Source of the DNA: Sarcina sp. DSM 11001
Lineage (GTDB): Bacteria > Bacillota > Clostridia > Lachnospirales > Lachnospiraceae
Assembly (NCBI RefSeq): GCF_900101015.1
Contig: NZ_FNFZ01000003.1
Location: 124,001-188,000, forward strand
Length of the DNA: 64,000 bases
Reading direction: 5' to 3'
How positions within the stretch are numbered: position 1 is the stretch's first letter; the number at the start of each line of letters is the position of its first letter. Below the pieces are notes generated by a model. It saw nothing but the letters and a program-made list of their open reading frames with translations, was not told the DNA's origin and did no database searches. Below are positions 15,345-32,107 of this stretch, piece by piece. The translations under genes were made by a program, and so were the position numbers.

Positions 15345-16781
15345 TTATTGAAACAAATCCTCCAGTGTAATCTGACTGTTGATAATTCCACTGTATTTGC
15401 CCCGTTTCACTCCATATGTCGTTATCATAGTTGTCTGTAAAGATTTTTTGCAATTTGTCATTCTTCTGAAAGCGTCAAGCTTGTTTCTTAAAACCATGTC
15501 GTAATCCTTGTCTATTACGTACTCATTTATCGAGAACTTCATCTCACATACATTAATAACCCTGTCCCTGCGTTCTATGAGTAAGTCGATCTGCGCACCC
15601 GGAACTCCCAGTTCTTCATCTCCATGTGTATACCATATTGATTCTTCCGAAAGCACTCCGGATATACCGAGTTTTTTCTTAATTTGCGGGATATGATCTT
15701 TACAGAGCTGTTCAAAGGTTAAACCTGTCCATGACCTTCGAGCCGGGTTGTCAATTGCATTGCTCCAGTAATGTTCGTCTTTGCCGTAGTTATTCTTTAT
15801 ATAGCGGTAATAAAACGCCGTGTAATAGTCAGACAGCTGATAAAGGGCATCTTTCTTCTTTTTGCCATAGAAATTAGACACCCTTATAAAGCCGGAAGAC
15901 TCAAGATTGCTGATCATTTTCGAAAAATTTCCGTTTGCAGGCAAACCCGTCTTCTGTAGGAGTTCATTTCTCGTAAGGCCTCCCTTTTTTGTACTTAATG
16001 CCTCAACTATTTTTATATGACTGTCACTGTTTGAGAATAGAGTTGCATACAAATGCCCGAATTCGTCCCACAGTTCTCCCCTCTTTTTAAAGAAAAGATT
16101 ATCTATATTCTGCGTATATGACATAGCTTTGTCCAGAAGATTCAGATAGTATGGGATTCCTCCCATTATCATATAACACTCTGCTATCTCATAACGCGAC
16201 CATGTAATACCTTTGAAGCCAAGGAAATCTTCTGTTTCACGCAATGTGAACGGTTCCAGATATATCCTGCATGACTGCCGATTAAACAGCCCGCCTTTAT
16301 TGCCTGATATATTGTCTGTCATCCACGATGTGGCCGATCCGCAAACTATGAATACAAGGTTATTGTGCGTGGACGCCCAGTCATTCCAAAACCATTCAAA
16401 CAGCGGAAGAAAATCTGACTGAGGAGTATCAAGCCACGGCATTTCATCAATAAAGACAACCTGTTTTTCCTTCTCAGGCAGAGTCTCCAGATATTCTCTC
16501 AGCTGTCTGAACGCATCACGCCAGTCTGATGGCACAGGCTGTGTTTTCCTCGATTTTTGCTTCAACTCGTCTGCAAAACTCTCAAGCTGAAAAGCTTTTG
16601 TTTTTTTATAAGCTCCGGTCAGTTTAAAAGCAAATTCATTGTTAAAGTACTCATTGATAAGATAGGTTTTCCCCACTCTTCGTCTGCCATATATAATAAT
16701 CAACTGAGCCGATATAGCTTCCATACACCGGTCCAGCCTTGTGATTTCTTCGCTTCTTCCTATTATATTTCCAATGCTCAT
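15345..16781 (-). CDS. Orphan AAA ATPase with winged helix, DUF234 type (copy A)
   Basis: A 478-residue ATP-binding protein of the archaeal-type ATPase family. Walker A is YGRRRVGKTYLI (about residues 30-41), Walker B VVFIDEMPW, and a sensor-like VCGSATSWM follows. Residues ~270-320 (GLTRNELLQKTG, SKMISNLESSGFI) look like a winged helix. The C-terminal part matches DUF234 with a nuclease-like D-E-K arrangement (GAQIDLLIE, NVCEMKF). I chose the ATG at 16781, behind AGGCAGG, over a GTG at 16799. It is related to the copy at 30501. The function is unknown; a pair of matching inverted repeats lies upstream. Confidence 0.88.
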   Translation of the reverse strand: MSIGNIIGRSEEITRLDRCMEAISAQLIIIYGRRRVGKTYLINEYFNNEFAFKLTGAYKKTKAFQLESFADELKQKSRKTQPVPSDWRDAFRQLREYLETLPEKEKQVVFIDEMPWLDTPQSDFLPLFEWFWNDWASTHNNLVFIVCGSATSWMTDNISGNKGGLFNRQSCRIYLEPFTLRETEDFLGFKGITWSRYEIAECYMIMGGIPYYLNLLDKAMSYTQNIDNLFFKKRGELWDEFGHLYATLFSNSDSHIKIVEALSTKKGGLTRNELLQKTGLPANGNFSKMISNLESSGFIRVSNFYGKKKKDALYQLSDYYTAFYYRYIKNNYGKDEHYWSNAIDNPARRSWTGLTFEQLCKDHIPQIKKKLGISGVLSEESIWYTHGDEELGVPGAQIDLLIERRDRVINVCEMKFSINEYVIDKDYDMVLRNKLDAFRRMTNCKKSLQTTMITTYGVKRGKYSGIINSQITLEDLFQ

Positions 16782-16813
16782 ACCGACCTGCCTTCCCACT
16801 CAAGCATAAACTT

Positions 16814-16928
16814 CTGTCTAAATCTCCTATTATTTTATACTTTTAGACAGGTATTTGCAATGCGGCATAGTCTTCCGCATCAAACATGTCTGTCTAAAAC
16901 AAGACTTTTAGTCGAGATTTGGACAGAC
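16814..16928. repeat. Pair of CTGTCTAAA inverted repeats upstream of ATPase copy A
   Basis: Palindrome 1 has arms CTGTCTAAA (16814-16822) and TTTAGACAG (16842-16850). Palindrome 2 has arms GTCTGTCTAAA (16888-16898) and TTTGGACAGAC (16918-16928), with one mismatch. They lie 33 and 107 bases upstream of the ATG, a layout close to that of copy B at 31976-32107. Confidence 0.8.
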
Positions 16929-17020
16929 TTTGTTCTTACCTCCTAAAGTTCTGTCGAACGCAGTCCATGAGCAGCAAAAGTCGAACGTGACTACTGTATT
17001 GCCAGAAAGGGGTGAGAAAT

Positions 17021-17098
17021 ATGGCGGCCTGGACCGATTACAAAAACCATCTCAGGGCTGAAAACCCTGAAATCGCAAAAGATATTGAAAACCAATAA
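17021..17098 (+). pseudogene. Remnant of an XRE-type antitoxin start
   Basis: A 25-codon ORF, MAAWTDYKNHLRAENPEIAK onward, stands behind AAAGGGGTGAG. It resembles the N-terminus of clostridial helix-turn-helix antitoxins (WTDYKxxVxAxDPEIGKDIE), but it stops before the DNA-binding domain. The truncation abuts the stop codon of the permease gene at 17099, so a recombination joint probably cut it. The match is from memory of the family, not a search. Confidence 0.55.
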
Positions 17099-18241
17099 TC
17101 AATTCCCGACCTGCAGCCTTTTATATTTCCGTTGGCCAATCAACAGCGCCGCTATCACGATTATGGCATATAAGACAGGTGCTGCCTGATAATTCAGGAA
17201 CAGTCTGCCTGCCAGATAAATCAGCCGGTAATTGGAAAACCCTGAATTCATCAGGATCGCATTCGGCCTGAGAAGCCATATCTTTTGTAATAAGCTGTAT
17301 CGATCCGGGAACTCCACAAACAGATCGATCAGGAGATATCCCATTAATCCGCAGATTGTTGCCAGTTGATTCTGCGTAATTACAGAAAGCAGCATTGTCA
17401 CTGCAGCAAACAGAACAGCGGCAAGCAAATAGATGCCGAAATAGACGACCAGCATATGACCGATCGTACAGGGAAGCATGGACATTGGTTTCACCAGCTG
17501 GAGCATTTCCCCTGTTCCCTCTAAGCCGTAAATGCTGAAATATGGGATCATTACAGACAAAAATACTATCAATGCAGCCGTTATGCTCCAAGTGAATCCG
17601 GCTGCAAGTTTAATATAATATAATTCTTTTTTACCATATCGGCTGCATAAAAGGAGCTGGTTCATACTGTCCGCAGATTCTCTTGCATAAGAGCCGGATA
17701 GTCCGACAGCAGATAAAAGCAGGATGAAGAATCCCAGCGCCTGAAAGGCTCGCAGCAGGTTTCCGGGGCCCCTGTGACAGCGGTAAACAAACGGTTTCTG
17801 AACCATTGTCTCCCGTTTCATCCAGAATTCTTTATCCTTCTCTGTAAGCCCCTGTATTTCCAACCGCTGAACCAGTTCCTGCTCTCTTCGCTCATAAAGC
17901 CCGTTTTCCCGGATTTCGGTAAGGTCGATGTCTTCATCGATTGACGTTATCATCACGTCGAGCACATCCATGACTGGTACATATTTTTCATATTCCCCTG
18001 TTATTTCCATTACAGTCGTTCCATTGACATATTTGAGAGCCGGTTTCAGTTCATCAATCAACTGTCCGTCAATCTCTCTGCCATTCAGTTCCTCCGCGGC
18101 CTCCCTGGATACCGGCCTGGCTTCAGCGATGGAGGAGTCTGCAAGGAGTATCAGCATGAGAACCGATCCCGCAAGCGCTATTATATTGACTCTGGAGCAG
18201 AACAGTTTCTTCAGTTCAAACCTATATATAGTCCTCAGCAT
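17099..18241 (-). CDS. ABC exporter permease of the sigma/ABC operon
   Basis: A 380-residue membrane protein. One N-terminal transmembrane segment is followed by a ~120-residue extracytoplasmic loop (SSIAEARPVSREAAEELNG region), then about five more segments, as in ABC-2 type permeases. It starts nine bases after the ATPase gene, with GAGGGAG upstream. It ends the operon sigma factor - membrane protein - ATPase - permease. A degraded copy of its last ~300 bases lies at 29911-30222. The substrate is unknown. Confidence 0.8.
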   Translation of the reverse strand: MLRTIYRFELKKLFCSRVNIIALAGSVLMLILLADSSIAEARPVSREAAEELNGREIDGQLIDELKPALKYVNGTTVMEITGEYEKYVPVMDVLDVMITSIDEDIDLTEIRENGLYERREQELVQRLEIQGLTEKDKEFWMKRETMVQKPFVYRCHRGPGNLLRAFQALGFFILLLSAVGLSGSYARESADSMNQLLLCSRYGKKELYYIKLAAGFTWSITAALIVFLSVMIPYFSIYGLEGTGEMLQLVKPMSMLPCTIGHMLVVYFGIYLLAAVLFAAVTMLLSVITQNQLATICGLMGYLLIDLFVEFPDRYSLLQKIWLLRPNAILMNSGFSNYRLIYLAGRLFLNYQAAPVLYAIIVIAALLIGQRKYKRLQVGN

Positions 18242-18250
18242 TATTCTCCC

Positions 18251-18949
18251 TCACTGGTTATCACTAATCTTAGATATATAGAATTCCTCAAGATCTCCAG
18301 CACCCGCATTCCATTCGCCTTGCCAGAGAAGCCTTCCTTCCTTCATGATCATCAGCCTGTCAGCGATATGTTCCAGATCGGATACGATATGCGTGGAAAG
18401 CAGTACGATCCTGTCTTTCCCGATATCCGCTATCAGATTCCTGAAACGGATCCGTTCCTGCGGATCCAGACCTGCAGTAGGCTCATCCATAATAAGTATC
18501 TGCGGATCATTCAAGAGCGCCTGTGCGATTCCAAGCCTCTGCTTCATTCCCCCGGAATAGGTGCGGACCTTTTTCCGCGCAGCATCTTTCAGCCCCACCA
18601 GTTCGATCAGTTCTCCTGTTTTTTTCAGAGCAACGGTTTTCTGCAGGCCTTTTACGGCTGACATATAAAGGAGGAAGTCTCTGCCTGAAAACTCCGGATA
18701 GTAACCAAACTCTTGTGGAAGGTATCCAAGCATCTCACGGTATTCTTCTGTTTCCACACCCATTCCATCACAGGTGACGGTTCCGCTGTCCGGGACAAGA
18801 ATACCGCACAGGATACGCATCAATGTTGTCTTCCCTGCACCGTTTGCCCCAAGTAGCCCTGTCACTCCCTTTGTCAAAGTAAATGACATCCGGTCTACCG
18901 CGATCTTATTCTTATACTGCCTCGTAATCCTGTCCGCTGTTAATTCCAT
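18251..18949 (-). CDS. ABC transporter ATP-binding protein
   Basis: A 232-residue ATPase. Walker A GANGAGKTTLM, the signature YSGGMKQRLGIAQ, Walker B ILIMDEPTAGLD and the H-loop LLSTHIV are all intact. The ATG at 18949 has GAGGAAG upstream and overlaps the stop of the preceding gene by ten bases. Longer in-frame starts only add residues read from that gene's 3' end. It powers the permease encoded immediately downstream. Confidence 0.93.
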   Translation of the reverse strand: MELTADRITRQYKNKIAVDRMSFTLTKGVTGLLGANGAGKTTLMRILCGILVPDSGTVTCDGMGVETEEYREMLGYLPQEFGYYPEFSGRDFLLYMSAVKGLQKTVALKKTGELIELVGLKDAARKKVRTYSGGMKQRLGIAQALLNDPQILIMDEPTAGLDPQERIRFRNLIADIGKDRIVLLSTHIVSDLEHIADRLMIMKEGRLLWQGEWNAGAGDLEEFYISKISDNQ

Positions 18950-20122: not shown

Positions 20123-20279
20123 AGCATGCCCTCCTCTTTATTAAGTCTTTTCATAAATGTATAACGGAAAAAAGCCTGGTTTGTGCGCTTATAAAACAGC
20201 ACTTACCCATTCTCGTTATCGATTCGATCAATCCATACATCGGAATAATCTTCCTTCTTTCATAAATGGATTTATAAAC

Positions 20280-20458
20280 AGCCGGTGCAAGCTCCTTCAT
20301 CAGGAGCCTGCACCGGCTGTTTTGAGCTATATCACGATCTTCAATTGTCCCAAAAGTGTCCCAACTATACCGCCGAATCCCCCGGGAGTCCAGTAAATAC
20401 AAGGCACTCAGGCAAAAAGGAATGCCCTGCCGTGGCACACGAAAAGTATACGAACCAT
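20280..20458. repeat. Dispersed hairpin repeat, copy R1
   Basis: A near-perfect hairpin (AACAGCCGGTGCAAGCTCC against GGAGCCTGCACCGGCTGTT, 20278-20324) is followed by a conserved GAGCTATATCACGATCTTC, then TGTCCCAAAAGTGTCCC, then AGTCCAGTAAATACAAGG. It ends in a stub of an LMW-PTP gene. Related copies lie at 28428-28582 (R2) and 32138-32257 (R3), and an inverted part at 26754 (R4). The 644-base gap from 20123 to 20766 holds this repeat, the inverted end at 20578 and no gene. Confidence 0.75.
20408..20458 (-). pseudogene. LMW-PTP stub 1
   Basis: Reads MVRILFVCHG then RAFLFA and a stop. The first ten residues match the start of LMW protein-tyrosine phosphatases up to the nucleophile Cys-His-Gly. 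The reading frame then leaves the family at the codon where NICRSP should follow. The break point is identical in stubs 2 and 3. Confidence 0.65.
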
Positions 20459-20577
20459 AAAAATTAGTTCATTCTAACAGACCTGTTTTGCCGCAAAATG
20501 CCGCGATTTACCGCGATATCCTGCCGGCATACCGGAGATTCATTCTGTCACGAAATCAGGTCAAAAATGCAAAATCC

Positions 20578-20646
20578 GGCAAATTGAGGCAAATCGGGGA
20601 CGCCAACAGTAGTCAAATCGTAGTAAAACCGAGGTGGTTTTACTAC
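20578..20646. repeat. Left inverted end of a ~3.3 kb segment, with hairpin
   Basis: GGCAAATTGAGGCAAATCGG (20578-20597) is the inverted counterpart, 17 of 20 bases matching, of 23902-23921. GGTTTTACTAC follows in both at 44-58 bases. Here it is part of an 11 bp hairpin (20620-20646) trailed by GTTTTTT. Confidence 0.55.
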
Positions 20647-20766
20647 TGCCGTTTTTTGAGTCCCAAAAATAGGACTTTATTTCAGGCGGGTTGAAGGGTT
20701 GAAGTTCAACAACTGGAATTTGATTGTTTAACCTTCGGTTTTCCGGGGTAACGGAGCCCGAATAAT

Positions 20767-21960
20767 TCAAATCCCGCACATACGCAATGGTTCACTGCCA
20801 GAAATCTCATAGCTGATTCCTGCCAAATCCAGCGCATCCAGAAAACATCTGAAATATCTATCCGAAGTATAAGGCTGCATGAATGCAAGAAAGAAACTGT
20901 GATTGAAACAAGAGATCTCACAAAGAATATCTGTAATCTTCGACAGGGAAGTCACGATATACTGCTCTTCGATATAGGGGTCCAGCGGCCCGAAGGTTTT
21001 GCTGTTTACATAGGATATGCAGATACTTGCCTGCGCGATATCCGGGGATGGAGATGCCAGCATCTGCTTCATCTTCTTGATTTCCCAGAGTGAATTCTCC
21101 GGTTGAGCCTGCAGCATCAGCTGTCCGCGGGCGATTGTACATGCTTTGGCGATATCTTTCATATCCCGTGCCTTCGGGAAGTCCAGGAGGGCCTCACCCA
21201 CAAACATACGGTAATTGGGACGAATTCCCAGCATCGCCTTGTGATCGATGCATACAGAAACGGTAATCGTCTTTTCGCTTTCCGGATTCCAGCGCCTCGC
21301 TGCTTTTGCCAGCAGCACGGATATCAGCACATTCGGGCTGCCGTCATATTCTCTGCAGTATTGCATGACCTGTCTTTCGGAGAGCTTCACATAAAAGACC
21401 GTTTTTCTGCTGTCCACTCCGTCACTCAGCCGAAAGAAATCGGGAATCGGTTTCTTTTTATACAGGGGGGCTTCCACACTGCCGATATCCAGTTCGCTGA
21501 ACGGATTCCCTGTTTCGGATTCCGGGATCATATCACCCGGCAGGCGGAATCCGGCCGGATCGAAGGTTTGTCCGGTTGCCTTTGACAGATACAGGAACAT
21601 TGTACTCTTGACATAAGGCAGCACTCCCGATGCATCGGTTAGGGCGTGGTGAATCTCAAATGCTAACCGGCGTCCTTCGTATTTCCAAGCCGCGAGGTGG
21701 TAGTTGGACACTTCGGAATGAAGACAGATCGGCTCCCATGTGTTCCGGACTGTCATGCATAGATCATTCGGCACGGTGACCAGGTCATCCCCTCGGTACG
21801 CAGCTTTGACATAAAAGTACGGAATACGCACCCTCATCTCTTCCACAGCCCACCGGAGGATATCCCCGTCCACAGGATCGTTTAGGGAGAGTATCACACC
21901 CATGACATTCTGGTGCTCGGGCACAGAAAAATCAAGATGCGGTTCATAAAACTCCGGCAT
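20767..21960 (-). CDS. Condensation-domain-like acyltransferase
   Basis: A 397-residue protein with the CoA-dependent acyltransferase signature HHALTDASG at about residue 107 (HHxxxD). It also has a late conserved-like N/DF-GxxG-equivalent region (ASICISYVNSKTFGPLDPY). The overall layout recalls condensation, PapA and alcohol-acetyltransferase folds. Substrates are unknown, and no NRPS or PKS module is near. The ATG at 21960 is favoured by GGAGG five bases upstream; the ATG at 21972 has no ribosome site. It shares strand and inverted-repeat bracket with the lipoprotein gene upstream. Confidence 0.72.
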   Translation of the reverse strand: MPEFYEPHLDFSVPEHQNVMGVILSLNDPVDGDILRWAVEEMRVRIPYFYVKAAYRGDDLVTVPNDLCMTVRNTWEPICLHSEVSNYHLAAWKYEGRRLAFEIHHALTDASGVLPYVKSTMFLYLSKATGQTFDPAGFRLPGDMIPESETGNPFSELDIGSVEAPLYKKKPIPDFFRLSDGVDSRKTVFYVKLSERQVMQYCREYDGSPNVLISVLLAKAARRWNPESEKTITVSVCIDHKAMLGIRPNYRMFVGEALLDFPKARDMKDIAKACTIARGQLMLQAQPENSLWEIKKMKQMLASPSPDIAQASICISYVNSKTFGPLDPYIEEQYIVTSLSKITDILCEISCFNHSFFLAFMQPYTSDRYFRCFLDALDLAGISYEISGSEPLRMCGI

Positions 21961-22010
21961 ATATTCCTCCATAAGTCCCGATCATCGTCAGCTTTACAGC
22001 CAATCTGTTT

Positions 22011-23715: not shown

Positions 23716-24345
23716 GTATTCATCCTTTCACAAATTCCGATTGTACTTCTGGTATTATTTGTAATAAGTATCAAACGGTCACTGTCTTTAACACTCTATC
23801 TGGTTATATTTCTTGCATAGCCAGATTCACAGCTTATACGACATCTTGCGGTTACTTTTCTCAAACGTAGTAAAACCGTAGTAGAAATTCCATAGCTTGC
23901 CGCGATTTGCCCCGATTTGCCCCACAAAAACCGTCCCGCCTAAACACCGAATCAGCTGGTATTTTCTTTATTATTGTAGGGGTGTATTTTCTTGTCAAAT
24001 CCAATTCTGCTCAAAACAACTCACTTCCTTTAAATCGTCCCCAGGTTGGGGACAAATTGTACTTAATTTTCCATATTTGCAAAAGAGCTTCAACAGTCAC
24101 GAATCGATATTGACAAATGCTTTGTGGATGTCGTTGCCGAAACCAGCCTTCCGATTCGTAGTCGACACTTTCTCCCAAAGAATATAGCAGTCAACTACAG
24201 CTAAACTTCTTTTAAATATTCCAAATTCTATTTTTAAATACCAAATATAAAAATATTTTTTATATTTAAGCTTTAAATGCTGAATTTCTCATGGATTCAT
24301 GCTATCATGGGCACTGAATAAAACCAGATGAAGGAGGTGACTATC
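23716..24345. other. Gene-free stretch with inverted end and AT-rich palindrome
   Basis: Holds the right inverted end (GCGATTTGCCCCGATTTGCC at 23902-23921, and CGTAGTAAAACCG at 23866-23878) matching 20578-20646. An AT-rich palindrome, AAATATAAAA (24243-24252) with TTTTATATTT (24258-24267), lies about 80 bases before the ATPase start. No supported gene. Confidence 0.6.
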
Positions 24346-25548
24346 ATGCTATGTCAGTTTTCATTCAGCAATTTCCGTTCCTATCGGGATGAAACCACAT
24401 TCGATTTCCAGGCAGCGGCTCTTTCGGAGTTCAAGGACAGCCTTATAAAGACTGAAAAAGGAAATGATATTTTGCCGGTCGGTGTGATCTACGGTCCGAA
24501 TGGAGGAGGCAAGTCCAACCTTCTTGCAGCTCTGGGATGCGTGATCTCACTTGTCACAGAACCAGTTTATGAGCTTGGCAAGAATCACGCCCGCTTCATC
24601 ATGCAGCAGAAGGTTTCCTGTGTCCCGTATCTGTTCGACAAGGATTCCCGGGAAGATCCTTCCCGTTTCCAGCTGTTTTTCCGCATCGGTGAATATGAAT
24701 ACCGCTACTTTATTGTACTTCTTCACGGCGAAATAGAGGAGGAAACGCTCTATCGCCGCAAGCTCGGTGCCAGCCGGGCTGCCAGGATCTTTGAGCGGGA
24801 TCATGGAGAGATTTTCCTTGGGACAATTCTCGGAAGCAAGAATATCAACACTGAAGTAAATTCCAAAATGCCTCTGCTCTCCTTCCTTGCGATCAACTAT
24901 TCCATCCCCGTGATCGTAGAAGTCATTCGCTGGTTTGAAGAGTGCATCATCCGCGACTATGCAAATCCTTTGGCAGAGCAGCAGATCCTTCTCTCCGATG
25001 ATGACGTATCAAAGAAGCAGTTCCTTACCATGATGAATGACATGGGAATCGGCATCACCGGGTACCGTTTTGATCAGCAGAGCAATGAATTCTACCTGCA
25101 GAGGACCATGCATGATACGCTCTATGAGCTCCCGTTTTCCAGCGGATCCGATGGGACCAGGAAGCTGTTCGCTGCGCTCCCTGTTATCCTCATGGCCCTG
25201 AAGGAGGGGCGTCTGGTAATCGTTGATGAACTGGATGCCAAGCTGCATCCGAAACTTCTTCGTTATGTCATCCGGCTCTTTACGAATCCGGAGATCAATA
25301 AGAAGGGAGCACAGCTGCTCTTCACTTCGCATGACATGTCCACAATGAAGAACAGCATCTTCCGCAGGGATGAGATCTGGTTCGCCGCTTTGGATTCAGA
25401 AAACAGCAGTGAAGTCTATTCTCTCTCTGAGCTTCGTAAGGAAAATAACGATCCCATCAACAACACGGCTGCTTATGATAAGCAGTATCTGGAAGGACGG
25501 TATGGGGCTGACCCTTATCTTAAGAATATGCTGAGCTGGGAGGTGTGA
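24346..25548 (+). CDS. AbiLi/RloA-like AAA ATPase of a two-gene defence module
   Basis: A 400-residue ATPase. QFSFSNFRSYRDE, typical of OLD/RecF-like AAA_21 proteins, opens it. Walker A is YGPNGGGKSNLL, Walker B LVIVDELDAKLHP, and LLFTSHDM a later switch. The ATG at 24346 is preceded by AAGGAGGTGA; the upstream in-frame ATG at 24328 lies before that site. The next gene begins two bases after its stop and belongs to the RloB family. RloA/RloB and the lactococcal AbiLi/AbiLii pairs share this order, and AbiL aborts phage infection. The defence role is inferred from that. Confidence 0.82.
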   Translation: MLCQFSFSNFRSYRDETTFDFQAAALSEFKDSLIKTEKGNDILPVGVIYGPNGGGKSNLLAALGCVISLVTEPVYELGKNHARFIMQQKVSCVPYLFDKDSREDPSRFQLFFRIGEYEYRYFIVLLHGEIEEETLYRRKLGASRAARIFERDHGEIFLGTILGSKNINTEVNSKMPLLSFLAINYSIPVIVEVIRWFEECIIRDYANPLAEQQILLSDDDVSKKQFLTMMNDMGIGITGYRFDQQSNEFYLQRTMHDTLYELPFSSGSDGTRKLFAALPVILMALKEGRLVIVDELDAKLHPKLLRYVIRLFTNPEINKKGAQLLFTSHDMSTMKNSIFRRDEIWFAALDSENSSEVYSLSELRKENNDPINNTAAYDKQYLEGRYGADPYLKNMLSWEV

Positions 25549-25550
25549 CG

Positions 25551-26271
25551 ATGAGCCGTAAACCTCCTAAAAAATCCGATATGGGCAAGTCCTGGATGAA
25601 GCCCCGTCGTGATTCCCGGCAGATGATTTCCCCGGAATATCATCTGATCGTTTCCGAGGGGCTCACGATGTCCGGGGGACATCGGTTCTGAGCCGACCGG
25701 AGCGGAGCGGAGACCAAAAACAGAACCAACATATTTTGAGAAAATCAAAGAGACGATAGATGCCAAGTATCGGGATCGTATTCATCTGGATATCTCAGGA
25801 AAGGGCGACAACACTGTAAACCTGTTCAACCGGGCTGTGAAAGACGTAGCACGCAGCAACAATGTTTATAAGCATGTCTGGCTGGTATTTGATAAAGATG
25901 ATTTTCCAGCGGAGAACTTTGACCATACTGTTGAACTTTGTGAGGCAGAAAGCACAGAGGAAACCAGGTATCATCCCATATGGTCGAACCAGTGCATCGA
26001 GCTATGGTTTCTGCTTCATTTCATGTTCCTGCAATCAGATCTTCATCGGGATGAATACTGGCCAAAGCTTAGCGAATGCCTGAAGGCAAGAAACCTTGGT
26101 ATCTATTACAAAAATCGAACGGATATGTTTGATATTCTCCGGCCTTATATGGATGATGCAATCCGGAATGCAAAGATGTTGGTAGAGATTAATACCGGAA
26201 GAACACCCAGCAAATCTGCCCCCGGAACGATGGTTCATTATCTTATCAGAACACTGAAACCATACCTGTGA
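25551..26271 (+). pseudogene. RloB/AbiLii-like gene broken by a ~50-base insertion
   Basis: The first 46 codons (MSRKPPKKSDMGKSWMKPRR on) run to SPEYHLIVSEG and then into a TGA at 25689. In the +1 frame, KTEPTYFEKIKETID resumes and continues to 26271 with RloB features: VWLVFDKDDFP, and NQCIELWFLLHF near the middle. In intact relatives EG is followed almost directly by KTEP, so about 50 extra bases and a frame change separate two halves of one gene. The E of the EG motif is thought to be a Toprim catalytic residue, so the insertion hits the active site. A sequencing error alone would not explain it. Confidence 0.75.
25660..25694. repeat. Palindrome inserted in the RloB gene
   Basis: GGCTCA-CGATGTCC pairs with GGACATCG-gttc-TGAGCC around a GGG loop. 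It is followed by GACCGGAGCGGAGCGGAG, a short GC-rich direct repeat. The unit lies exactly where the RloB reading frame is interrupted. Confidence 0.7.
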
Positions 26272-27000
26272 TCTGATGATAATCCCTCCGTCGGAAAAAA
26301 ACGCCTGATATGAAAAACGACATGTGTCTCCAAAGAAAAACTCCTTGCCCTGTCTGCATTTTCTTCAAGGCAAAGAGTTTGATTATCGACATACTTGCAT
26401 GTCGGTTCGAGTACCTGCAAGCCGTCTTCCTGACATAACGTACAATACTATGGTATTGCTCTCTATTTACGCACCAACTTGGTGCGTAATTTTATTTTCA
26501 CAAACAAACTTGCAGCCAGGATCTCTTGTTCACAACAAATCATGGACAATTTACGCGACAAATTGTTTCGCAATTTCAGAATCCAGAAGCAATCCGTCAG
26601 CTGTACCTGCTTTCTGTTTCCGCAGCATCAGTGTTAATATTTTCTAAATAGTGTGTCACAACAAAGGCCACTTCCGGGGCTCTTTCCTTCATTTCTTAAA
26701 CAGTTCTTCCCAACCGCCCTCAATTGGTGTACTTGTGGTGTACTAATCCCTGCTTTTTTCTCTGACACCCTTGATTTTACTGGCTCTCCGGGCTTTTACA
26801 GAATAGTGCCGTGGCAGACAAACAGTATTTTTATCACTCTCTCCATAAGTCTCCAAAACCCTTAATATTATCAACTTCTTCAGGAGTGCCTTGCCCACCA
26901 AAAGTGGCTGCAGCTCCCACGACAAGCTAAAGTATATCTGTTTAAGCCTCTCTGATAAAACGCAAAACCTATTAGTTTTTGAGGTTTTGCGTTTTGATAA
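26272..27000. other. Gene-free stretch with LMW-PTP stub 3 and R4
   Basis: No full gene is supported. At 26796-26837 (- strand) GTG starts VIKILFVCHG, then TIL and a stop: a third LMW-PTP stub cut after CHG. Next to it, 26754-26795 matches the AGTCCAGTAAATACAAGG core of R1/R2 but in the opposite orientation relative to the stub. The rest looks like decayed sequence. Confidence 0.6.
26957..26995 (-). terminator. AAAACGCAAAACC palindrome after ATPase copy C
   Basis: AAAACGCAAAACC (26957-26969) pairs with GGTTTTGCGTTTT (26983-26995), five bases past the ATPase stop codon. It can serve as a terminator on the - strand. Its arms recur in the palindrome in front of the same gene (28250-28287), which is unusual for a simple terminator. 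Confidence 0.7.
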
Positions 27001-28221
27001 TTACGCTTTTTCCAAGGCATTCTCATTCAGCAGAAAATCCAGTAAATACATCATCCGGTATCCATTCTCAAGATTCGACAACGGATTTCGATCCATAGTG
27101 ATCAGAATCTTCTTATATCCGTCATCGAGCTTGTGGAACGCTGAAATCTCCCGTTCCTTCACCGCCTCGTCCTGTATAGTGTAAGAGACCTGGATGTAAT
27201 ATTGCCTGCCGCCGAGTTCCCTGGCGACAAAATCAATTTCTTTTTCCCGATTTTTCCCGATATCTACAATATAGTCCCGACGAAGCAGCTCCAGATATAC
27301 GAGATTTTCAATAATATGCGTGATCTCGATCTGCCTGTAATGAATTGCCGCATTACGAAGCCCCATATCAGCAGCATAATACTTATTCTGAGTCTTCAAA
27401 TACTCCTTCCCCTTAATATCATATCGGTTTACACGATAAAAGAGAAAAGCATCACAAATATGGCTTAGATATCTGCTGATAGTTTCATTATCCACCGACT
27501 TAAAACCATTGCTTTTCAGCGTGTTTGTGATTTTATTTGTGGAAACATATGCGCCGATCGATGAACAGAGGTGCTCTATTAATGCAATAAACAACGCCTC
27601 ATTACGGATATCATAGCGATCTATCATATTCCTGGTGACCACCGTGTTTACCATCATATCCAGATAGGCTCGTTTTTCCTGTTCTTCCGTTTCCCGGACA
27701 GCATAGGGCAGCCCGCCGAACTGCACATACTCATAAAATGCATCCGTTTTGTCGATCTGCCTGTACGCAAGAAATTCGGCAAACGACAACGGGAAAACCT
27801 TTATTTCAATACCACGTCCGCGAAAGATTGTATTGATATCGTGAGACAGCAGCCTGGAATTGGAACCGGTAATATATACATCCGTATTGAATTCCGCCTT
27901 GATCGAATTGACTACTTCCTCAAACCCATCTACAAGCTGGATCTCGTCCAGAAACACATAGTATAGCTCGTCATCATGAATAGCCCCGGCTATATAATGA
28001 TAAAGCATATCTCCGTCCCGCAGCGACTCCCATTTCTTCAGATCAAGCGACACTTTGATAATATGATCCGAAGGAACACCCTCGGACAAAAGGCAGTCAT
28101 AAAATAATTCATTCAAAAGTACAGACTTTCCGCATCTGCGGATACCGGTAATCACCTTCACAATGTCCTTTTTTTGATATCGGACAAGCTTGTTTAAAAG
28201 TTGATCTCTTCTGATATACAT
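27001..28221 (-). CDS. Orphan AAA ATPase, AAA_14/DUF4143 type (copy C)
   Basis: A 406-residue ATP-binding protein. Walker A is TGIRRCGKSVLLNEL at residues 26-40, and Walker B YYVFLDEIQLVDG near residue 90. ITGSNSRLLS is a sensor-like motif of this family. The C-terminal DUF4143 region has a nuclease-like E-D-E arrangement (KEIDFVARE then QVSYTI) after a winged-helix-like segment (KITNTLKSNGFKSVDNETISRYLSH). GAGGTGATTGG precedes the ATG. The cellular role is not known. It is bracketed by matching palindromes at 26957 and 28250. Confidence 0.9.
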   Translation of the reverse strand: MYIRRDQLLNKLVRYQKKDIVKVITGIRRCGKSVLLNELFYDCLLSEGVPSDHIIKVSLDLKKWESLRDGDMLYHYIAGAIHDDELYYVFLDEIQLVDGFEEVVNSIKAEFNTDVYITGSNSRLLSHDINTIFRGRGIEIKVFPLSFAEFLAYRQIDKTDAFYEYVQFGGLPYAVRETEEQEKRAYLDMMVNTVVTRNMIDRYDIRNEALFIALIEHLCSSIGAYVSTNKITNTLKSNGFKSVDNETISRYLSHICDAFLFYRVNRYDIKGKEYLKTQNKYYAADMGLRNAAIHYRQIEITHIIENLVYLELLRRDYIVDIGKNREKEIDFVARELGGRQYYIQVSYTIQDEAVKEREISAFHKLDDGYKKILITMDRNPLSNLENGYRMMYLLDFLLNENALEKA

Positions 28222-28249
28222 CTTCCAATCACCTCACCGCCTATAATAT

Positions 28250-28287
28250 AAACGCAAAACTTCAAAATTTCAATAGTTTTACGTTTT
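28250..28287. repeat. AAACGCAAAACT inverted repeat in the promoter of ATPase copy C
   Basis: Arms AAACGCAAAACT (28250-28261) and AGTTTTACGTTTT (28275-28287) lie 29 bases upstream of the ATG. On the - strand they overlap TTGAAG and TATTATA-like promoter elements. The arms match those of the palindrome at 26957-26995. Confidence 0.75.
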
Positions 28288-28427
28288 GATACGGCAGAAT
28301 CGTCCTCAATCCGGGGACAATTCTATGATTGTTCTATAATCCATGTTTAACCCATTTCTATCGAGAATGAAAAGCATTTCCTTCTACACAAAAAAGCCAG
28401 TGCATATCGCCTTCGTTGGTGTGGAAG

Positions 28428-28582
28428 GAGCCTGCACCGGCTGTTCCGAGCTATATCACAATCTTCAACGGTCCCAAAAGTGTCCCAACTTCCTGCCCGG
28501 ATTCCCCGGAAGTCCAGTAAATACAAGGGACTCAGGCAAAAAGGAATACCCTGCCGTGGCAAACAAACAGTATCTTTATCAT
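28428..28582. repeat. Dispersed hairpin repeat, copy R2, with LMW-PTP stub 2
   Basis: Contains GGAGCCTGCACCGGCTGTT, GAGCTATATCACAATCTTC, GTCCCAAAAGTGTCCC and AGTCCAGTAAATACAAGG, as in R1. It ends in a 17-codon - strand ORF (28532-28582) reading MIKILFVCHG then RVFLFA and stop. That stub sits four bases below the stop codon of the Fic gene. Confidence 0.75.
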
Positions 28583-28585
28583 AAA

Positions 28586-29626
28586 TCATATCCTCATGTA
28601 CCTGGCATCCCGAAAGCTGCCTATCTTTTTTATCTCCCCTTTTTTCTGAAGCTGTCCAAGCACCAGCTCCACTGTTCTTACACTGATATCAGGGACTTTC
28701 TCTGCTATTTCCTGCTTTGAGATCGGCACCAGGGAATTTAGCACAACAGCTCTTACTCTTTCTGATTTTTTTGCTTTATGCAATGCACCATCGATAAAGC
28801 GGTCATCCAGTTCCTTGTAGCAGCGGTACAGAATCTGCATGAAATTGATCATAAAAGGGGTGTAGTCATTTTCATTGCTGTGCCAGTTCAGCGACGACTT
28901 CTCCAGCGCTTCGTAATACGCTTCCCTGTACCTGTTAATCTGCTGTTCTATGGAAATATACCTGCCGATATCGTAGCCATGCTTATACAGAAGAAAGATT
29001 GTGAGCAGTCTGGACACCCTGCCGTTTCCATCCGAAAAGGGATGAATGCACAAAAAATCCAGAACAAGACATGGAATCACAAGCAAAATCGGGATATCAC
29101 CATCCTGCCTGGCATCTATGTAAGCCAGAATAAGCTGTTCAATCGCGTCAGGTGTTTCTGCTGCTTCTACCGGTCTGAATCTCACCCGCCGCTTTCCATC
29201 GGGAGTATATTCCATAATCAGGTTATTATTCTTTTTAAACTTTCCTGCTTCCTCCACAGAAACAGCACCCGTTATCATCCTGTGCATCTGTAAAAGAAAG
29301 TCTTCAGTAAGATCCATTGTCCTGTACTCATCGTGAATCAGGGAAAGCGCGTCTTTATACCCGGAAATCTCCTTCTCATCATGAGAAACAGGGACGGCAC
29401 CTTTCACCAGATCTAAAATGCGGTCATCTGTTGTCACAATTCCCTCAATCGCATTACTCCCCTTTACAGATTCAACGATCGCTCTTTGTTTCAGCGCATC
29501 AAATGCCTTAGGATTCTGTTTTCTGCGCAGGGTTTCCTTTGCGTTCAGATCAGAAATAACATTGGAAATACTGACGATTTGGCCCGGTATCTGATTTTTC
29601 AAAAAGCTGTAATCGAAAGTTCTCAT
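28586..29626 (-). CDS. Fic family AMP-transferase-like protein with C-terminal winged helix
   Basis: A 346-residue protein. The Fic motif HPFSDGNGRVSRLL, with catalytic His and the phosphate-binding GNGR, lies at about residues 195-208. SNAIEGI near residue 58 fits the (S/T)xxxE(G/N) autoinhibitory helix, so the enzyme is likely of the N-terminally inhibited class. Residues 295-345 (ISKQEIAEKVPDISVRTVEL, then LQKKGEIKKIG) form a winged helix. Such Fic proteins transfer AMP to proteins; the target is unknown. GGGGAGGAAGT precedes the ATG, and a 12 bp palindrome lies just upstream. Confidence 0.92.
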   Translation of the reverse strand: MRTFDYSFLKNQIPGQIVSISNVISDLNAKETLRRKQNPKAFDALKQRAIVESVKGSNAIEGIVTTDDRILDLVKGAVPVSHDEKEISGYKDALSLIHDEYRTMDLTEDFLLQMHRMITGAVSVEEAGKFKKNNNLIMEYTPDGKRRVRFRPVEAAETPDAIEQLILAYIDARQDGDIPILLVIPCLVLDFLCIHPFSDGNGRVSRLLTIFLLYKHGYDIGRYISIEQQINRYREAYYEALEKSSLNWHSNENDYTPFMINFMQILYRCYKELDDRFIDGALHKAKKSERVRAVVLNSLVPISKQEIAEKVPDISVRTVELVLGQLQKKGEIKKIGSFRDARYMRI

Positions 29627-29637
29627 ACTTCCTCCCC

Positions 29638-29676
29638 ATTTACTTACTATATATTAACAAATTTTAGTAAGTAAAT
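29638..29676. repeat. ATTTACTTACTA inverted repeat in the Fic leader
   Basis: ATTTACTTACTA (29638-29649) pairs perfectly with TAGTAAGTAAAT (29665-29676) around a TATATATTAACAA-type loop. It starts 12 bases upstream of the ATG, next to the ribosome site, a good operator position. Confidence 0.82.
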
Positions 29677-29725
29677 CGAGCCCTATCATCACACTGGCAG
29701 GTTTCCATTCAGAGCTTTTTCTCTG

Positions 29726-29911
29726 TCACCCATCTCAGGCCGCCTGTCTTCGTACGCCTTTTTCGATCTTAATATGATTTCGCCGTCGCCGGCTCCATTC
29801 GGGAGTATGAGACCTGATTCGATGTCCTCTAATCTCGTATCCTCCTGCCGCCTGAACTCTATTTTTCGCTTCCCGCCTCTTGCCCGGAACCGTTCCTCAA
29901 TAAGCCTGCAG
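29726..29911 (-). pseudogene. Duplicated internal fragment of the gene at 33525-35273
   Basis: Closely matches about 34055-34240 (roughly nine of ten bases by eye), including the codons for RGGKRKIEFRRQEDTRLEDI. It has no start or conserved end. At its right border, CTGCAG joins it to a fragment of a different gene. Confidence 0.75.
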
Positions 29912-30222
29912 TCTCTTATATTTCCGCAGGCCAATCAACAGCGCCGCTATCACGATCATAGCATATAAGACAGGGGCTGCCTGATAATTCAGGAACCGTC
30001 TGCCTGCGAGATGAATCAGCCGGTAATTGGAAAAACCGGAATTCATCAGGATCGCATTCGGCCTGAGAAGTCATATCTTTTGTAATAAGCTGTATCGATC
30101 CGGGAACTCCGCAAACAGATCGATCAGGAGATATCCCATTAATCCGCAGATGGTTGCCAGTTGATTCTGCGTAATTACAGAAAGCAGCATTGTCACAGCA
30201 GCAAGCAGAACAGCGGCAAGCA
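29911..30222 (-). pseudogene. Duplicated 3' fragment of the ABC permease at 17099
   Basis: Closely matches about 17109-17420 with scattered substitutions and a small length difference near 30071 that breaks the frame. No promoter or start is present. Together with the preceding fragment it forms a chimera of two gene pieces whose sources lie 12.8 kb to the left and 4.3 kb to the right. Confidence 0.78.
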
Positions 30223-30260
30223 AATTGAACCGGACATATTTCATCCGGTGGCAGATAATT

Positions 30261-30360
30261 CAAGACTCGCTCGCGAGTCTTGCGCGCCGGATGCGGGTTG
30301 ACATGTCTTGTTTTTCAAAGACATGTCAACATCTTCCGAACCGCATCCGTGCGCATCCTC
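30261..30360. repeat. CAAGACTCG palindrome copy 2 and a large hairpin
   Basis: CAAGACTCG/CGAGTCTTG (30261-30282) repeats the arms at 5748-5769. It is followed by a hairpin with GGATGCGG and TTGACATGTCTT on one side and AAGACATGTCAA and CCGCATCC on the other (about 30289-30349). No reading frame is evident. Confidence 0.6.
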
Positions 30361-30368
30361 GCGGAGCG

Positions 30369-30469
30369 TTTATTCTTCATCGCGGGATTGTACCCACGAT
30401 GAAGCGAGTTTCCCTTTTGCGCGCGTATCCCACGACTGAAGTCACGGGTATTGCGCGATGAAGAATAAA
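30369..30469. mobile_element. 101 bp MITE-like unit with 16 bp perfect terminal inverted repeats
   Basis: TTTATTCTTCATCGCG (30369-30384) and CGCGATGAAGAATAAA (30454-30469) are perfect inverted copies. The interior contains CCCACGACTGAAGTCACGGG, a hairpin of the style seen at ends of IS200/IS605-family elements. The right ~60 bases recur at 40040-40103. No transposase is encoded, so it would depend on one elsewhere. Confidence 0.65.
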
Positions 30470-30500
30470 ATTCTGATTTTCTTCATTACATCCCCGAACT

Positions 30501-31958
30501 TTACATATTTTGAAACAGCTCATCCAGTGTTATTGTGTTGATAAAATCGCCAAAATACTCCACATGTCGTAAACCAAATGTTGTAATAAGCGTATTGTGA
30601 ATCGAAGCCTTCTTTGGAAGGATTTCCCGAAGAAGACGCTCTCTTCGCATAAGCGCAAAATGACAGTCCTTGTCCGCAGTAAACTCATCGTTATAGAATT
30701 TAATTTCACACATGTTTACCACATTATCTTTTCTTTCAATAATGAGGTCAATCTGTGCTCCCTCTGCATCTTCTGTACCCTTTTTGGACCAAAGTGATTC
30801 TTCCGTACTGACTCCACTGATCCCGAGAGCAGCTTTGATCTGCTTGATATGGTTGAAACACAGATTTTCATACGCCAGGCCATTCCAGCTCACTACAGCC
30901 TGCGTATTTGCAGCACCAATCCATTCTTTCTTTTTTCTTGAAGATTTGTCACTTACAAATCTTAAGTAAAAAATACAAAAGGGATCTGTAAGTTTATAAT
31001 AGCTGTCCCGTTTACCATTCCCGAAAGAATCATATTTCATTATGAAGGCTCCGGATTCCAGCGCTTTAAGCTGCCTGCTGAGTGAACCGCTGTCTGTAAT
31101 GCCGGTTTTGCTCAGCAGCTCCTTTCTCGTCAATCCCCTGTTTTTCGAATTCAGGGCAATTACAATTGACTTCATCACCTCCGGATTTGTAAAAAGGGAG
31201 TAAAACAAACGTTCAAATTCATCTTTCAAAGGGGCGCCTCTGTCAAAAAAGAGAGCCTGTATATTCTGTGTAACGCTTAAAGCTTTGTCAAAAAAATTCA
31301 GATAGAATGGAATACCTCCTGCCATCATATAAGCATAAGCGATGTCATAGCGGGATAGCGAAAATCCTTTTGACAGGAAAAACTGCTCACACTCATACAG
31401 ATTAAATGGCTGAAGATCTATCTCATATGTGAGCCTGCCATAAAGGCCCCCGTAATTGTTTACCAGTTTGTCGAGAACCCATGAGGTGGAACTTCCGCAC
31501 GTAATAAGCATTATATTATGCCTGTGGCATGCCCAACTGTTCCAGAATGCCTCAAGTCCTGTTATAAAACCTGCTTTGGGTGTGTCCATCCACTGAATTT
31601 CATCGAGGAAAACCAGAAGTCGTCTATTAGTGACATCTTTTTCAGTCAGAAAACTCTCCAGCATATAAAATGCTTCCAGCCAGGATTTCGGTGGATCGCA
31701 TTTCTTCATTCCCTGCATCATGAGTGACTGGTGAAAATGAGCAAGCTGCTCTCTCATACGATTCTTTTTAACGCCGCCTTCGTCTGTGCCGACCGGAGAC
31801 AAACCGGCATGTCTGAACGTAATATCACCATAAAAAACTTCATCAATAAGATACGTCTTTCCTACTCTTCTTCGCCCATATACCGCAACAAATTCCGCCC
31901 GTCCGCTGTCATACAGTTCCCTGAGCTTCTTCTGTTCCTTCTTCCTGCCTATTATCAT
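30501..31958 (-). CDS. Orphan AAA ATPase with winged helix, DUF234 type (copy B)
   Basis: A 485-residue paralogue of copy A. Walker A is YGRRRVGKTYLIDE near residue 27, Walker B LLVFLDEIQWMD, and LITCGSSTSWV a sensor motif. The middle winged helix reads GLTRKELLSKTG and SLSRQLKALESGAFI. The C-terminal DUF234-like part has GAQIDLIIER and NMCEIKFYND. I chose the ATG at 31958, which has GGAG seven bases upstream; a start at 31970 lacks a site. The function is unknown. Two matching inverted repeats precede it, as for copy A. Confidence 0.88.
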   Translation of the reverse strand: MIIGRKKEQKKLRELYDSGRAEFVAVYGRRRVGKTYLIDEVFYGDITFRHAGLSPVGTDEGGVKKNRMREQLAHFHQSLMMQGMKKCDPPKSWLEAFYMLESFLTEKDVTNRRLLVFLDEIQWMDTPKAGFITGLEAFWNSWACHRHNIMLITCGSSTSWVLDKLVNNYGGLYGRLTYEIDLQPFNLYECEQFFLSKGFSLSRYDIAYAYMMAGGIPFYLNFFDKALSVTQNIQALFFDRGAPLKDEFERLFYSLFTNPEVMKSIVIALNSKNRGLTRKELLSKTGITDSGSLSRQLKALESGAFIMKYDSFGNGKRDSYYKLTDPFCIFYLRFVSDKSSRKKKEWIGAANTQAVVSWNGLAYENLCFNHIKQIKAALGISGVSTEESLWSKKGTEDAEGAQIDLIIERKDNVVNMCEIKFYNDEFTADKDCHFALMRRERLLREILPKKASIHNTLITTFGLRHVEYFGDFINTITLDELFQNM

Positions 31959-31975
31959 GACAATCTCCATATTTT

Positions 31976-32107
31976 ATATTTTTCGGTCAACGCATTATTC
32001 ACTGCTTTCACCGAAAATTATATAGTTAATCCAGAGCCTCGTCAATGTTGGATAAAATTATATTTTTCGGCGAACCATTTAAAATATGCTTTTGCCGAAA
32101 GTTATAT
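31976..32107. repeat. Pair of TATTTTTCGG inverted repeats upstream of ATPase copy B
   Basis: Palindrome 1: ATATTTTTCGGT (from 31976) with ACCGAAAATTATAT (to 32023). Palindrome 2: TTATATTTTTCGGC (from 32058) with GCCGAAAGTTATAT (to 32107). They begin 18 and 100 bases upstream of the ATG, close to the spacing found for copy A with quite different arms. Confidence 0.8.

Follow-up and report, generated by a model that had tools for sequence, protein, structure and literature searches.

Winged-helix candidate defence genes with putative private leader operators in Sarcina sp. DSM 11001

CccR of Yersinia pseudotuberculosis, a Fic domain followed by a C-terminal HTH, represses its own gene through a pair of inverted half-sites, each of 10 bp and separated by 26 bp, as established by footprinting, EMSA, ITC and mutation of the palindrome (PMC9755527). 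It is described as a secreted T6SS effector, and the available part of that account concerns one protein and one operator, with no family-wide operator comparison found in it. CbFic2 of Coxiella burnetii is a class II Fic protein whose C-terminal wHTH binds DNA, and DNA alters its enzyme activity (PMC10628234). SoFic is an anti-phage Fic protein controlled by the small protein AS1; the available text of the SoFic paper yielded no mention of HTH, winged, DNA-binding, upstream or transcription (PMC12249575). The candidate families PDC-S27 and PDC-S01 are described as an ATPase fused to PD-(D/E)XK, PDC-S01 being the fourth most common defence across prokaryotes, and anti-phage activity is pending for most PDCs (PMC12988326). 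Defence operons are repressed by BrxR/CapW, CapR and RptR (PMC12255303), and CapK/CapS silences defence genes transcriptionally (PMC13373217). As far as these sources describe them, all are separate regulators, whereas the repressor and effector proposed here would be one polypeptide.

The window, the whole 64,000-nucleotide stretch of Sarcina sp. DSM 11001 DNA that was analysed, contains four genes matching candidate defence family models in PADLOC, a relationship missed by the first-pass annotation. A and B match PDC-S27, C matches PDC-S01, and the fourth, Fic, is SoFic-like. All four lie in one island, next to AbiL.

15345..16799, minus strand: gene A (PDC-S27), starting at ATG 16781 or GTG 16799; STAND-like ATPase, winged helix and PD-(D/E)XK-type motif; Pfam ATPase_2; PADLOC PDLC04984, E 1.1e-201
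24328..25548, plus strand: AbiLi homologue, neighbouring defence system; PADLOC E 8.3e-82
25837..26271, plus strand: AbiLii homologue, partial match; PADLOC E 1.7e-15
27001..28221, minus strand: gene C (PDC-S01; AAA_14 and DUF4143); PADLOC PDLC04787, E 1.9e-136; AF2 model, mean pLDDT 92.0
28586..29626, minus strand: gene Fic, class II Fic AMP-transferase with C-terminal winged helix; Pfam PF02661
30501..31970, minus strand: gene B (PDC-S27); PADLOC PDLC04984, E 2.6e-184; AF2 model, mean pLDDT 92.8

The PDLC04984 matches of A and B are full-length. The ATPases have the STAND-type arrangement of ATPase, helical and winged-helix domains, and we take STAND to be the class to which they, SSO1545 and PABY2304 belong. 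Matches to the two last-named archaeal ATPases (2fna and 2qen, respectively) lie mainly in residues 1-350 of B and residues 1-297 of C and leave out the nuclease part. Residues D408, E422 and K424 of the PD-(D/E)XK motif in B are invariant in alignments of 16 and 55 sequences, and their equivalents in A are D405, E419 and K421; no match to a nuclease fold was obtained for PDC-S27, though these catalytic residues are present. The nuclease-like domain of C is degenerate (E328-D330...Q344-V-S346), with Q344 unchanged across 14 and across 35 aligned sequences and no intact PD-(D/E)XK motif. C is without the ExK residues and so differs from the ATPase-PD-(D/E)XK architecture of PDC-S01 as far as its source describes it. 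Fic carries the class II inhibitory motif SNAIEG (HPFSDGNGRVSR). Like SoFic, it is a Fic-type candidate defence protein (PADLOC SoFic, E 6.2e-36), though at 39.9 of 550 bits it falls below the NCBIfam SoFic equivalog cut-off.

All four proteins had been said to contain a winged-helix-like segment, and the analysis agrees. It is seen in the AF2 models of B and C and aligned in A, and in Fic it follows from homology to the solved structure 8uqu (8uqu_A, E 8.5e-71) together with alignment.

15834..16028, minus strand: winged helix of A, residues 258-322, by alignment to modelled B
27373..27600, minus strand: winged helix of C, residues 208-283; AF2 model
28589..28825, minus strand: winged helix of Fic, residues 268-346, by alignment
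30990..31184, minus strand: winged helix of B, residues 263-327, with the recognition helix at 295-306 and the wing loop at 315-322
31092..31094, minus strand: codon of D293 in B; the residue lies two positions ahead of the recognition helix and is coupled to position 4 of the half-site

The inverted repeats reported before A, B, C and Fic are all found where the first-pass annotation placed them. A second repeat with the same arms had been placed 74-82 bases further up for A and B; it is present in both, at 76 nt for A and at 84 nt, slightly outside that range, for B.

16814..16850, unstranded: putative proximal operator of A, CTGTCTAAA-19-TTTAGACAG, arms 16814-16822/16842-16850, beginning 33 nt from ATG 16781
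16888..16928, unstranded: putative distal operator of A, arms 16888-16906/16910-16928, 79% complementary, sharing half-site TCTGTCTAAA with the proximal pair
28250..28286, unstranded: putative leader operator of C, AAACGCAAAACT-13-AGTTTTACGTTT, arms 28250-28261/28275-28286, 11/12 complementary
29638..29676, unstranded: putative operator of Fic, ATTTACTTACTA-15-TAGTAAGTAAAT, arms 29638-29649/29665-29676, 12/12 complementary
31975..32022, unstranded: putative proximal operator of B, arms 31975-31994/32003-32022, 85% complementary over 20 nt
32059..32106, unstranded: putative distal operator of B, arms 32059-32074/32091-32106

Against 400 dinucleotide shuffles of the leader (-150..+20), the repeats reach p =.005 for B,.005 for Fic,.015 for A and.042 for C. 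The window alone is only suggestive, because 6/28 other leaders in it also reach p<=.05. The homologues say more: a leader repeat at p<=.05 is present in 40/52 relatives of A and B (Fisher 1.4e-13) and 41/52 of Fic (2.2e-14), against 25/135 controls, and across phyla in 68/80 PDC-S27 leaders against 24/116 neighbour leaders (8e-20). On viral contigs the count is 21/38 for Fic against 25/140, and 6/16 for PDC-S27 (p =.09). The evidence for the C family is weak: 23/48 homologues (2e-4 against the same 25/135), 20/51 on viral contigs (against 25/140) and 7/48 with four or more half-sites. Judged on these sequence comparisons, the leader repeat is a firm feature of the A/B and Fic families and a moderately supported one of C. 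The locus L017 of the same genome repeats its half-sites with an inverted-repeat p of only.10, and L004 showed no convincing operator. Overlap of the arms with promoter-like sites did not exceed random expectation (12 vs 17.0; 21 vs 20.8; 10 vs 15.5).

Fic resembles CccR in having a Fic motif and a C-terminal winged helix (by homology and alignment), and in its spaced leader repeat, which is 12-15-12 in the window. By analogy, Fic would bind its own repeat and repress its own gene. The first-pass annotation knew of no description of such a pattern; for the Fic member this does not hold, because CccR, in the part of its account available, does repress its own gene by way of an inverted repeat with wide spacing. 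The parallel extends to the Fic member only.

The repeats could instead be operators of a separate host regulator belonging to a phage, the SOS response or the island, and the shared island beside AbiL fits such a regulator. We regard this as highly improbable, since the half-site differs from gene to gene and tracks the encoded protein, and the 4.15-Mb genome has a single match to the Fic operator core pattern. The B pattern was found at B itself and at a single further site; its reversed control gave 2 and 2 hits.

Nor are the arms unrelated, as had been claimed: their similarity tracks protein identity, and they are alike within subfamilies and different between them, with a family scaffold and a variable core. 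In Fic proteins, with the rest of the protein controlled for, arm similarity goes with the winged helix (r =.346, p =.001), and the reverse barely holds (r =.082, p =.048). The winged-helix domain is the part of the Fic gene farthest from the leader. In 113 PDC-S27 genes the crude test of arm similarity failed to pick out the winged helix (partial r =.040, p =.14), the ATPase domain giving a partial r of.111 (p =.003). Sliding windows beat the permutation maximum in Fic only, where 6 of the 10 best lay outside the winged helix. Residue-base analysis of Fic was confounded by clade, and its top pairs were not specific to the winged helix (8/30 vs 6.8 expected; 12/30 vs 6.8).

In the covariation test that the first-pass annotation had proposed, the arms go with the protein, and in PDC-S27 a residue just in front of the recognition helix covaries with one base. 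Residue 293 and half-site position 4 form the top residue-base pair (z = 9.67), above the permutation maximum anywhere (8.33 within clades, 7.74 full, 60 permutations each) and the within-clade maximum at the same pair (3.99). The AF2 model places residue 293 two positions before the recognition helix and residue 321 in the wing. The winged helix holds 11 of the top 30 pairs (4.7 expected; maximum of 9 in 40 permutations), the remaining 19 falling outside it. Nearest-pair contrasts agree: the same residue goes with the same base in 16/20 cases, a different residue in 7/22 (one-sided Fisher p =.002). A rule pairing Asp with C, Asn with A, and Gly, Leu or Ser with G was right for 17/23 genes held out, where 8.5 would be expected (P =.0002), or for 11/23 with one reading direction (P =.025); its Ser-to-G part is weak, being mostly wrong in held-out genes (3/8). 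This coupling and the held-out rule together indicate that the PDC-S27 protein probably reads its own leader.

Perfect repeats beside start codons can also fold, and might act in the transcript as attenuators or terminators; some C-family repeats combine short loops with strong arms (L122, L124). RNA hairpins are nevertheless a very unlikely explanation. They do not predict covariation of base 4 with a winged-helix residue, and many leaders carry half-sites tens of bases apart, with at least four copies per 150 bp in 37/52 Fic leaders, 39/80 PDC-S27 leaders across phyla and 12/52 PDC-S27 leaders of the same taxonomic family, against 8/135 controls.

We therefore consider it probable, on the evidence of the repeats and the coupling, that each of the four genes encodes, by itself, a candidate phage-defence effector that carries its own autoregulator and has a private half-site. 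The winged helix within the effector would bind, as a dimer or higher oligomer, at least two widely spaced inverted half-sites of its own leader and, repressing rather than activating, keep the gene nearly silent. In PDC-S27 the half-site would consist of a family scaffold, about WTWYNGCNRAWTATA from inner to outer, plus a variable core read by residues 293 and 321. Such private half-sites would insulate paralogues in one genome from each other. Phage or stress may then alter the effector's state (NTP state for the ATPases, AMPylation or inhibition state for Fic), upon which the winged helix would release the DNA and expression would rise while the nuclease or AMP-transferase turns on. The earlier suggestion that each protein binds its own operator is thus retained at two strengths: A, B and Fic very probably do so, and C possibly.

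The C repeat recurs 5 nt past the stop codon, a copy overlooked by the first-pass annotation.

26957..26995, unstranded: downstream C inverted repeat, a second copy immediately 3' of the C stop, AAAACGCAAAACCT-11-AGGTTTTGCGTTTT

Simple autorepression does not require downstream copies. Among PDC-S27 genes, 29/121 have a partial copy of the leader in the 250 nt that follow the stop, 23/29 in direct orientation, against 4/170, 2/286 and 0/147 neighbour genes and 0/207 in a swapped control. Counted separately, a downstream inverted repeat with the leader's arms, sometimes with a different spacer, follows 18/123 PDC-S27, 3/49 Fic and 2/48 C-family genes (swapped controls 0,0,0; 0,1,0; and 0,0,0, respectively). 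The genes with such copies, window C included, may thus involve looping or a cassette. Tandem duplication was rejected as their general cause, because remnants of the own protein in the flanks were upheld in only 3/31 cases.

These copies could be auxiliary operators, with the oligomeric ATPase looping the leader to the 3' end or blocking read-through both ways. This would refine the autoregulator explanation for the subset concerned and tighten silence. Shared arms at both ends, in 18/123 PDC-S27 genes and in C, fit the idea, as do arm copies at -450..-150 in 18/93 cases (swapped 1-4), but looping needs no match confined to the outer leader (-200..-140), beyond the operator, as in L203, L266 and L249. 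We regard it as a tentative possibility.

The other suggestion of the first-pass annotation, mobile single-gene cassettes, would make the leader repeats one end of an element, bound through the winged helix by the encoded ATPase-nuclease, which would move itself and its leader. It retains something in C, with the same repeat at both ends, and in the quarter or so of PDC-S27 relatives that have a copy. The failure of tandem duplication also favours it, as does homology running from -77..-124 to -19..+49 of the stop in 6/8 locus pairs at least 75% alike. Against it, 92/121 PDC-S27, 43/45 Fic and 38/41 C-family genes are without a downstream copy, none being found for A, B or Fic of the window, and leader-only repeats fit a repressor rather than element ends. 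Moreover, homology at 75-87% identity would stop near the gene anyway, the closest pair (L407/L408, 91%) is alike far past both ends, and comparison with one genome in the genus showed no empty site or target-site duplication. We judge cassettes improbable, for the end-binding role of the winged helix as for the movement.

A bolder reading, which we also rate as unlikely, sees PDC-S27, together with part of PDC-S01, as self-addressing, self-contained elements that mark their gene by a DNA address on one side or on both. The address might, at similarly long odds, serve as both repressor operator and assembly site to excise, move or immunise the own copy. By an equally doubtful analogy with temperate phage immunity groups, paralogue incompatibility might drive operator diversification. 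The protein of this reading would be an ATPase with a winged helix and hypervariable DNA specificity, joined in PDC-S27 by a nuclease motif that is intact.

Beyond the CccR precedent, the new elements are the family-wide putative operators and the residue-base code of PDC-S27, which makes the claim testable residue by residue; winged helix, cognate putative operators and code are likewise additions to the PDC-S27 and PDC-S01 descriptions as available. The partial leader repeated just after the stop in PDC-S27 relatives and window C is also newly seen, and raises the question of looping or mobility. The CbFic2 study, in the part available, used random DNA (PMC10628234); CbFic2, like the window's protein, is a class II Fic with a C-terminal wHTH, and a cognate leader operator is the obvious candidate for the specific DNA missing there. 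PDC-S01 ranks with the most common candidate defence genes in prokaryotes (PMC12988326, as far as available). If self-silencing through private operators is true, it would allow a single-gene effector to be carried safely, in several copies per genome, and would provide an inducible read-out for the triggers of these proteins and ready-made orthogonal repressor-operator pairs.

Four genes of the window, all on the minus strand, carry an inverted repeat in the leader:

Start codon at 16781, minus strand: gene A, Pfam ATPase_2, PADLOC type PDC-S27
Start codon at 28221, minus strand: gene C, Pfam AAA_14 and DUF4143, PADLOC type PDC-S01
Start codon at 29626, minus strand: Fic gene, Pfam Fic, SoFic-like in PADLOC
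Start codon at 31958, minus strand: gene B, Pfam ATPase_2, PADLOC type PDC-S27

PADLOC also places AbiLi and AbiLii just past C, and the region resembles a defence island made up of single-gene candidates. This genome encodes two further PDC-S27 proteins (L004 and L006) and two further Fic proteins of this type (L015 and L017). A stop-containing fragment of a second PDC-S27 gene (G000:C71:14115-14468) lies near the intact paralogue L006. Modelled with AlphaFold, B and C (mean pLDDT 92.8 and 92.0, respectively) comprise ATPase, helical, and winged-helix domains, then one more domain. By sequence, neither protein matches a solved structure at E 0.01; among solved structures the models come nearest to the archaeal ATPases PABY2304 and SSO1545, followed by CED-4 and plant NLRs, with the C-terminal parts barely covered. 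PDC-S27 retains D408, E422, and K424, and C has lost the ExK pair. A plasmid search with B returned six records, each below 60% identity.

The surroundings of these genes are a patchwork of duplicated segments, including 17110-17433 and 29905-30228 (94% over 324 bp) and 29726-29911 and 34054-34239 (93% over 186 bp). A repeat roughly 60-100 bp long is dispersed over five places, with six matches (window 32113-32215, 28427-28486, and 20274-20362; G000:C44:80333 and 91043). Three of these are found ahead of defence genes, namely B, C, and the paralogue L004, and begin at most about 210 bp from the start; the repeat may mark a hotspot for insertion or recombination. The block C-Fic-B (window 26760-32402) recurs in a genome of another genus (G142:C122), about 95-99.7% identical in nucleotide sequence. 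There, Fic has an internal gap of about 130 bp and B one of about 120 bp, and C is open; this is either a recent transfer or a misplaced contig. Further along, the direct repeat at window 61889-62099 overlaps itself (89% over 121 bp, shift 90).

The four inverted repeats are present where the first-pass annotation had placed them. Scored over -150 to +20 with 400 dinucleotide shuffles each, the leaders gave p values of.005 (B and Fic),.015 (A), and.042 (C). Since p<=.05 is also attained by six of the 28 other leaders in the window, the window-only statistics are too weak alone, and are suggestive rather than conclusive. An unrelated gene (20767-21972, minus strand) has a very strong leader repeat (score 18, 33-nt arms), which may be the terminator of the gene upstream. 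Among the paralogues, L006 and L015 each have a strong leader repeat with its own pair of arms (0/100 shuffles equally good). The L017 leader holds several copies of TTGGGAGAA (inverted repeat p.10), and that of L004 has no repeat of this kind, its sole strong leader repeat falling within the dispersed repeat.

Homologue loci were taken as the best among up to 30 for every search, with a further 20 selected regions each. From the 168 entering the comparison within the same taxonomic family, we dropped nine that did not match the expected reference at E 1e-8 (L007-L014, L018), two without a usable start (L002, L020), four duplicates, and one C gene with a leader under 150 nt; 135 control leaders came from 20 of the homologue genomes of that family. 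Repeats at p<=.05 occur in 40/52 PDC-S27, 41/52 Fic, and 23/48 C-family leaders versus 25/135 controls, and repeats scoring at least 12 in 24/52, 33/52, and 13/48 versus 4/135. Across phyla, among the best 80 of at least 573 PDC-S27 relatives (from Bacteroidota, Bacillota, Gammaproteobacteria, Treponema, Kiritimatiellae, and Lentisphaerae according to the record titles), 68 have a leader repeat at p<=.05 versus 24/116 neighbour leaders at the same loci, with median scores of 14.25 and 7.5, respectively. On viral contigs the counts are 21/38 for Fic, 20/51 for C, 6/16 for PDC-S27, and 25/140 for controls, omitting 14/68 Fic loci and 1/18 PDC-S27 loci without a match at E 1e-15, then 11 loci lacking a usable start, 12 identical, and two lacking a full plain leader. 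Leader repeats are thus a strong feature of PDC-S27 and Fic and a moderate one of C. Centre-to-centre distances between arms are broad, mostly about 20-45 bp, so fixed arm spacing was rejected and we make no helical-phase claim. Several PDC-S01 leaders (L369, L122, L124, L115) have in common a TGCGG/CCGCA or TTTTTGCG core within compact palindromes, which differ from the spaced half-sites of PDC-S27 and Fic.

In all three families, the more alike two proteins are, the more alike their arms; 99% of Fic pairs above 80% identity agree at 10 or more of the 12 arm bases, and so do 9-25%, by bin, of those below 50%. The test proposed in the first-pass annotation, whether arms covary with the winged helix, was positive in Fic: arm similarity tracks the winged helix when the remainder of the protein is controlled for (r.346, p.001), even though no part of the gene lies farther from the leader. 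In 52 PDC-S27 genes the arms do so too (r.145, p.006), and the reverse relation is not significant; in 113, crude arm similarity no longer singles out the winged helix. It was therefore replaced for PDC-S27 by a sharper residue-base test, which did recover covariation. For the C family, the middle part is borderline once the ATPase part is controlled for (r.081, p.052).

This test used half-sites from 100 PDC-S27 genes, aligned on DNA sequence only. These are the genes with a repeat score of at least 10 among 113 aligned, including L004, whose best leader repeat lies inside the dispersed repeat, and excluding a distant subfamily (about 25-30% identity). From inner to outer end the half-site scaffold is about WTWYNGCNRAWTATA, with positions 3, 4, and 7-10 variable. 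Coupling, measured as background-corrected mutual information between each protein column and each half-site position, is highest for residue 293 (numbering of gene B) and position 4 (z 9.67), followed by residue 321 and position 0 (5.7); over all pairs, 60 within-clade permutations peak at 8.33 and 60 overall permutations at 7.74. Eleven of the top 30 pairs involve the winged helix (4.7 expected) and 19 lie outside it. The AlphaFold model puts residue 293 two residues ahead of the recognition helix and 321 in the wing. At position 4, Asp293 goes with C (21/34), Asn with A (13/19), Ser with G (14/21), and Gly or Leu with G (7/7). Among disjoint nearest pairs, the base differs in 15/22 where the residue differs and is the same in 16/20 where it is the same (one-sided Fisher p.002).

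Of 34 later-fetched PDC-S27 genes, 26 have a leader repeat at p<=.05, and the rule could be scored in 23 (repeat score at least 9, residue 293 covered by the rule). Read in a fixed direction, the rule was right in 11/23 (6.8 expected, P.025), in genes 41-84% identical to discovery genes, so that shared ancestry remains in the hold-out; read in either direction, an option taken up only after the fixed-direction result was seen, it was right in 17/23 (8.5 expected, P.0002). By residue, Asn, Gly, and Leu hold, with Asp right in 3/4 and Ser in only 3/8. Taken from sequence comparison, this is strong statistical evidence that the PDC-S27 winged helix reads the repeats in its own leader. In Fic, Arg321 accompanies C at position 10 (17/22 versus 1/48) and Glu320 accompanies C at position 7 (57.5/59). 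Both couplings are chemically sensible but clade-confounded, because none of 11 nearest pairs with different residues at 321 sets Arg against another residue.

The first-pass annotation had offered the ends of mobile cassettes as an alternative. A leader segment recurs within 250 nt after the stop in 29/121 PDC-S27 genes (23/29 in direct orientation), versus 4/170, 2/286, and 0/147 neighbour genes and 0/207 swapped downstream regions. In a separate count, a downstream inverted repeat with the leader's arms was found in 18/123 PDC-S27, 3/49 Fic, and 2/48 C-family genes. Such copies would fit the ends of a mobile unit, and would equally fit auxiliary operators for looping. Gene C has one, AAAACGCAAAACCT-11-AGGTTTTGCGTTTT, with its end 5 nt from the stop; A, B, and Fic have none, and the cassette proposal is not supported for these three. 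Remnants of a second gene copy occur in only 3/31 cases in the available flanks. Homology is confined to operator and gene in 6/8 pairs of similar loci, and the closest pair is alike far past both ends.

The putative Fic operator core has a single occurrence in the 4.15-Mb genome, and the B pattern is found at B and one other site, the reversed control pattern giving 2 and 2 matches. A dimer or oligomer probably occupies the spaced half-sites close to the start codon and keeps the gene down, and activation of the effector itself would release it. Promoter occlusion was rejected as a general geometry; the arms overlap promoter-like sites no more than random, so the putative repression may work in another way, and the protein might instead activate its gene. 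An experimental precedent for the Fic case is CccR of Yersinia pseudotuberculosis, a Fic protein with a C-terminal HTH that represses itself via AGATAATCAT-N26-ATGATAATCT (PMC9755527).

The observation behind the first-pass annotation is real, and its first reading, that each protein binds its own repeat and represses itself, appears largely right. Its remark that no description was known does not hold for Fic, which by analogy with CccR would be a self-repressing Fic of a kind already known. For the two other types, the open-licence PMC literature searched yielded no description of autoregulation of PDC-S27 or PDC-S01; nor was DUF4143 found together with an inverted repeat in that literature. 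What is new is PDC-S27 with its predicted operator code, a single-chain defence candidate carrying its own putative repressor and private operator, and PDC-S01 is possibly another.
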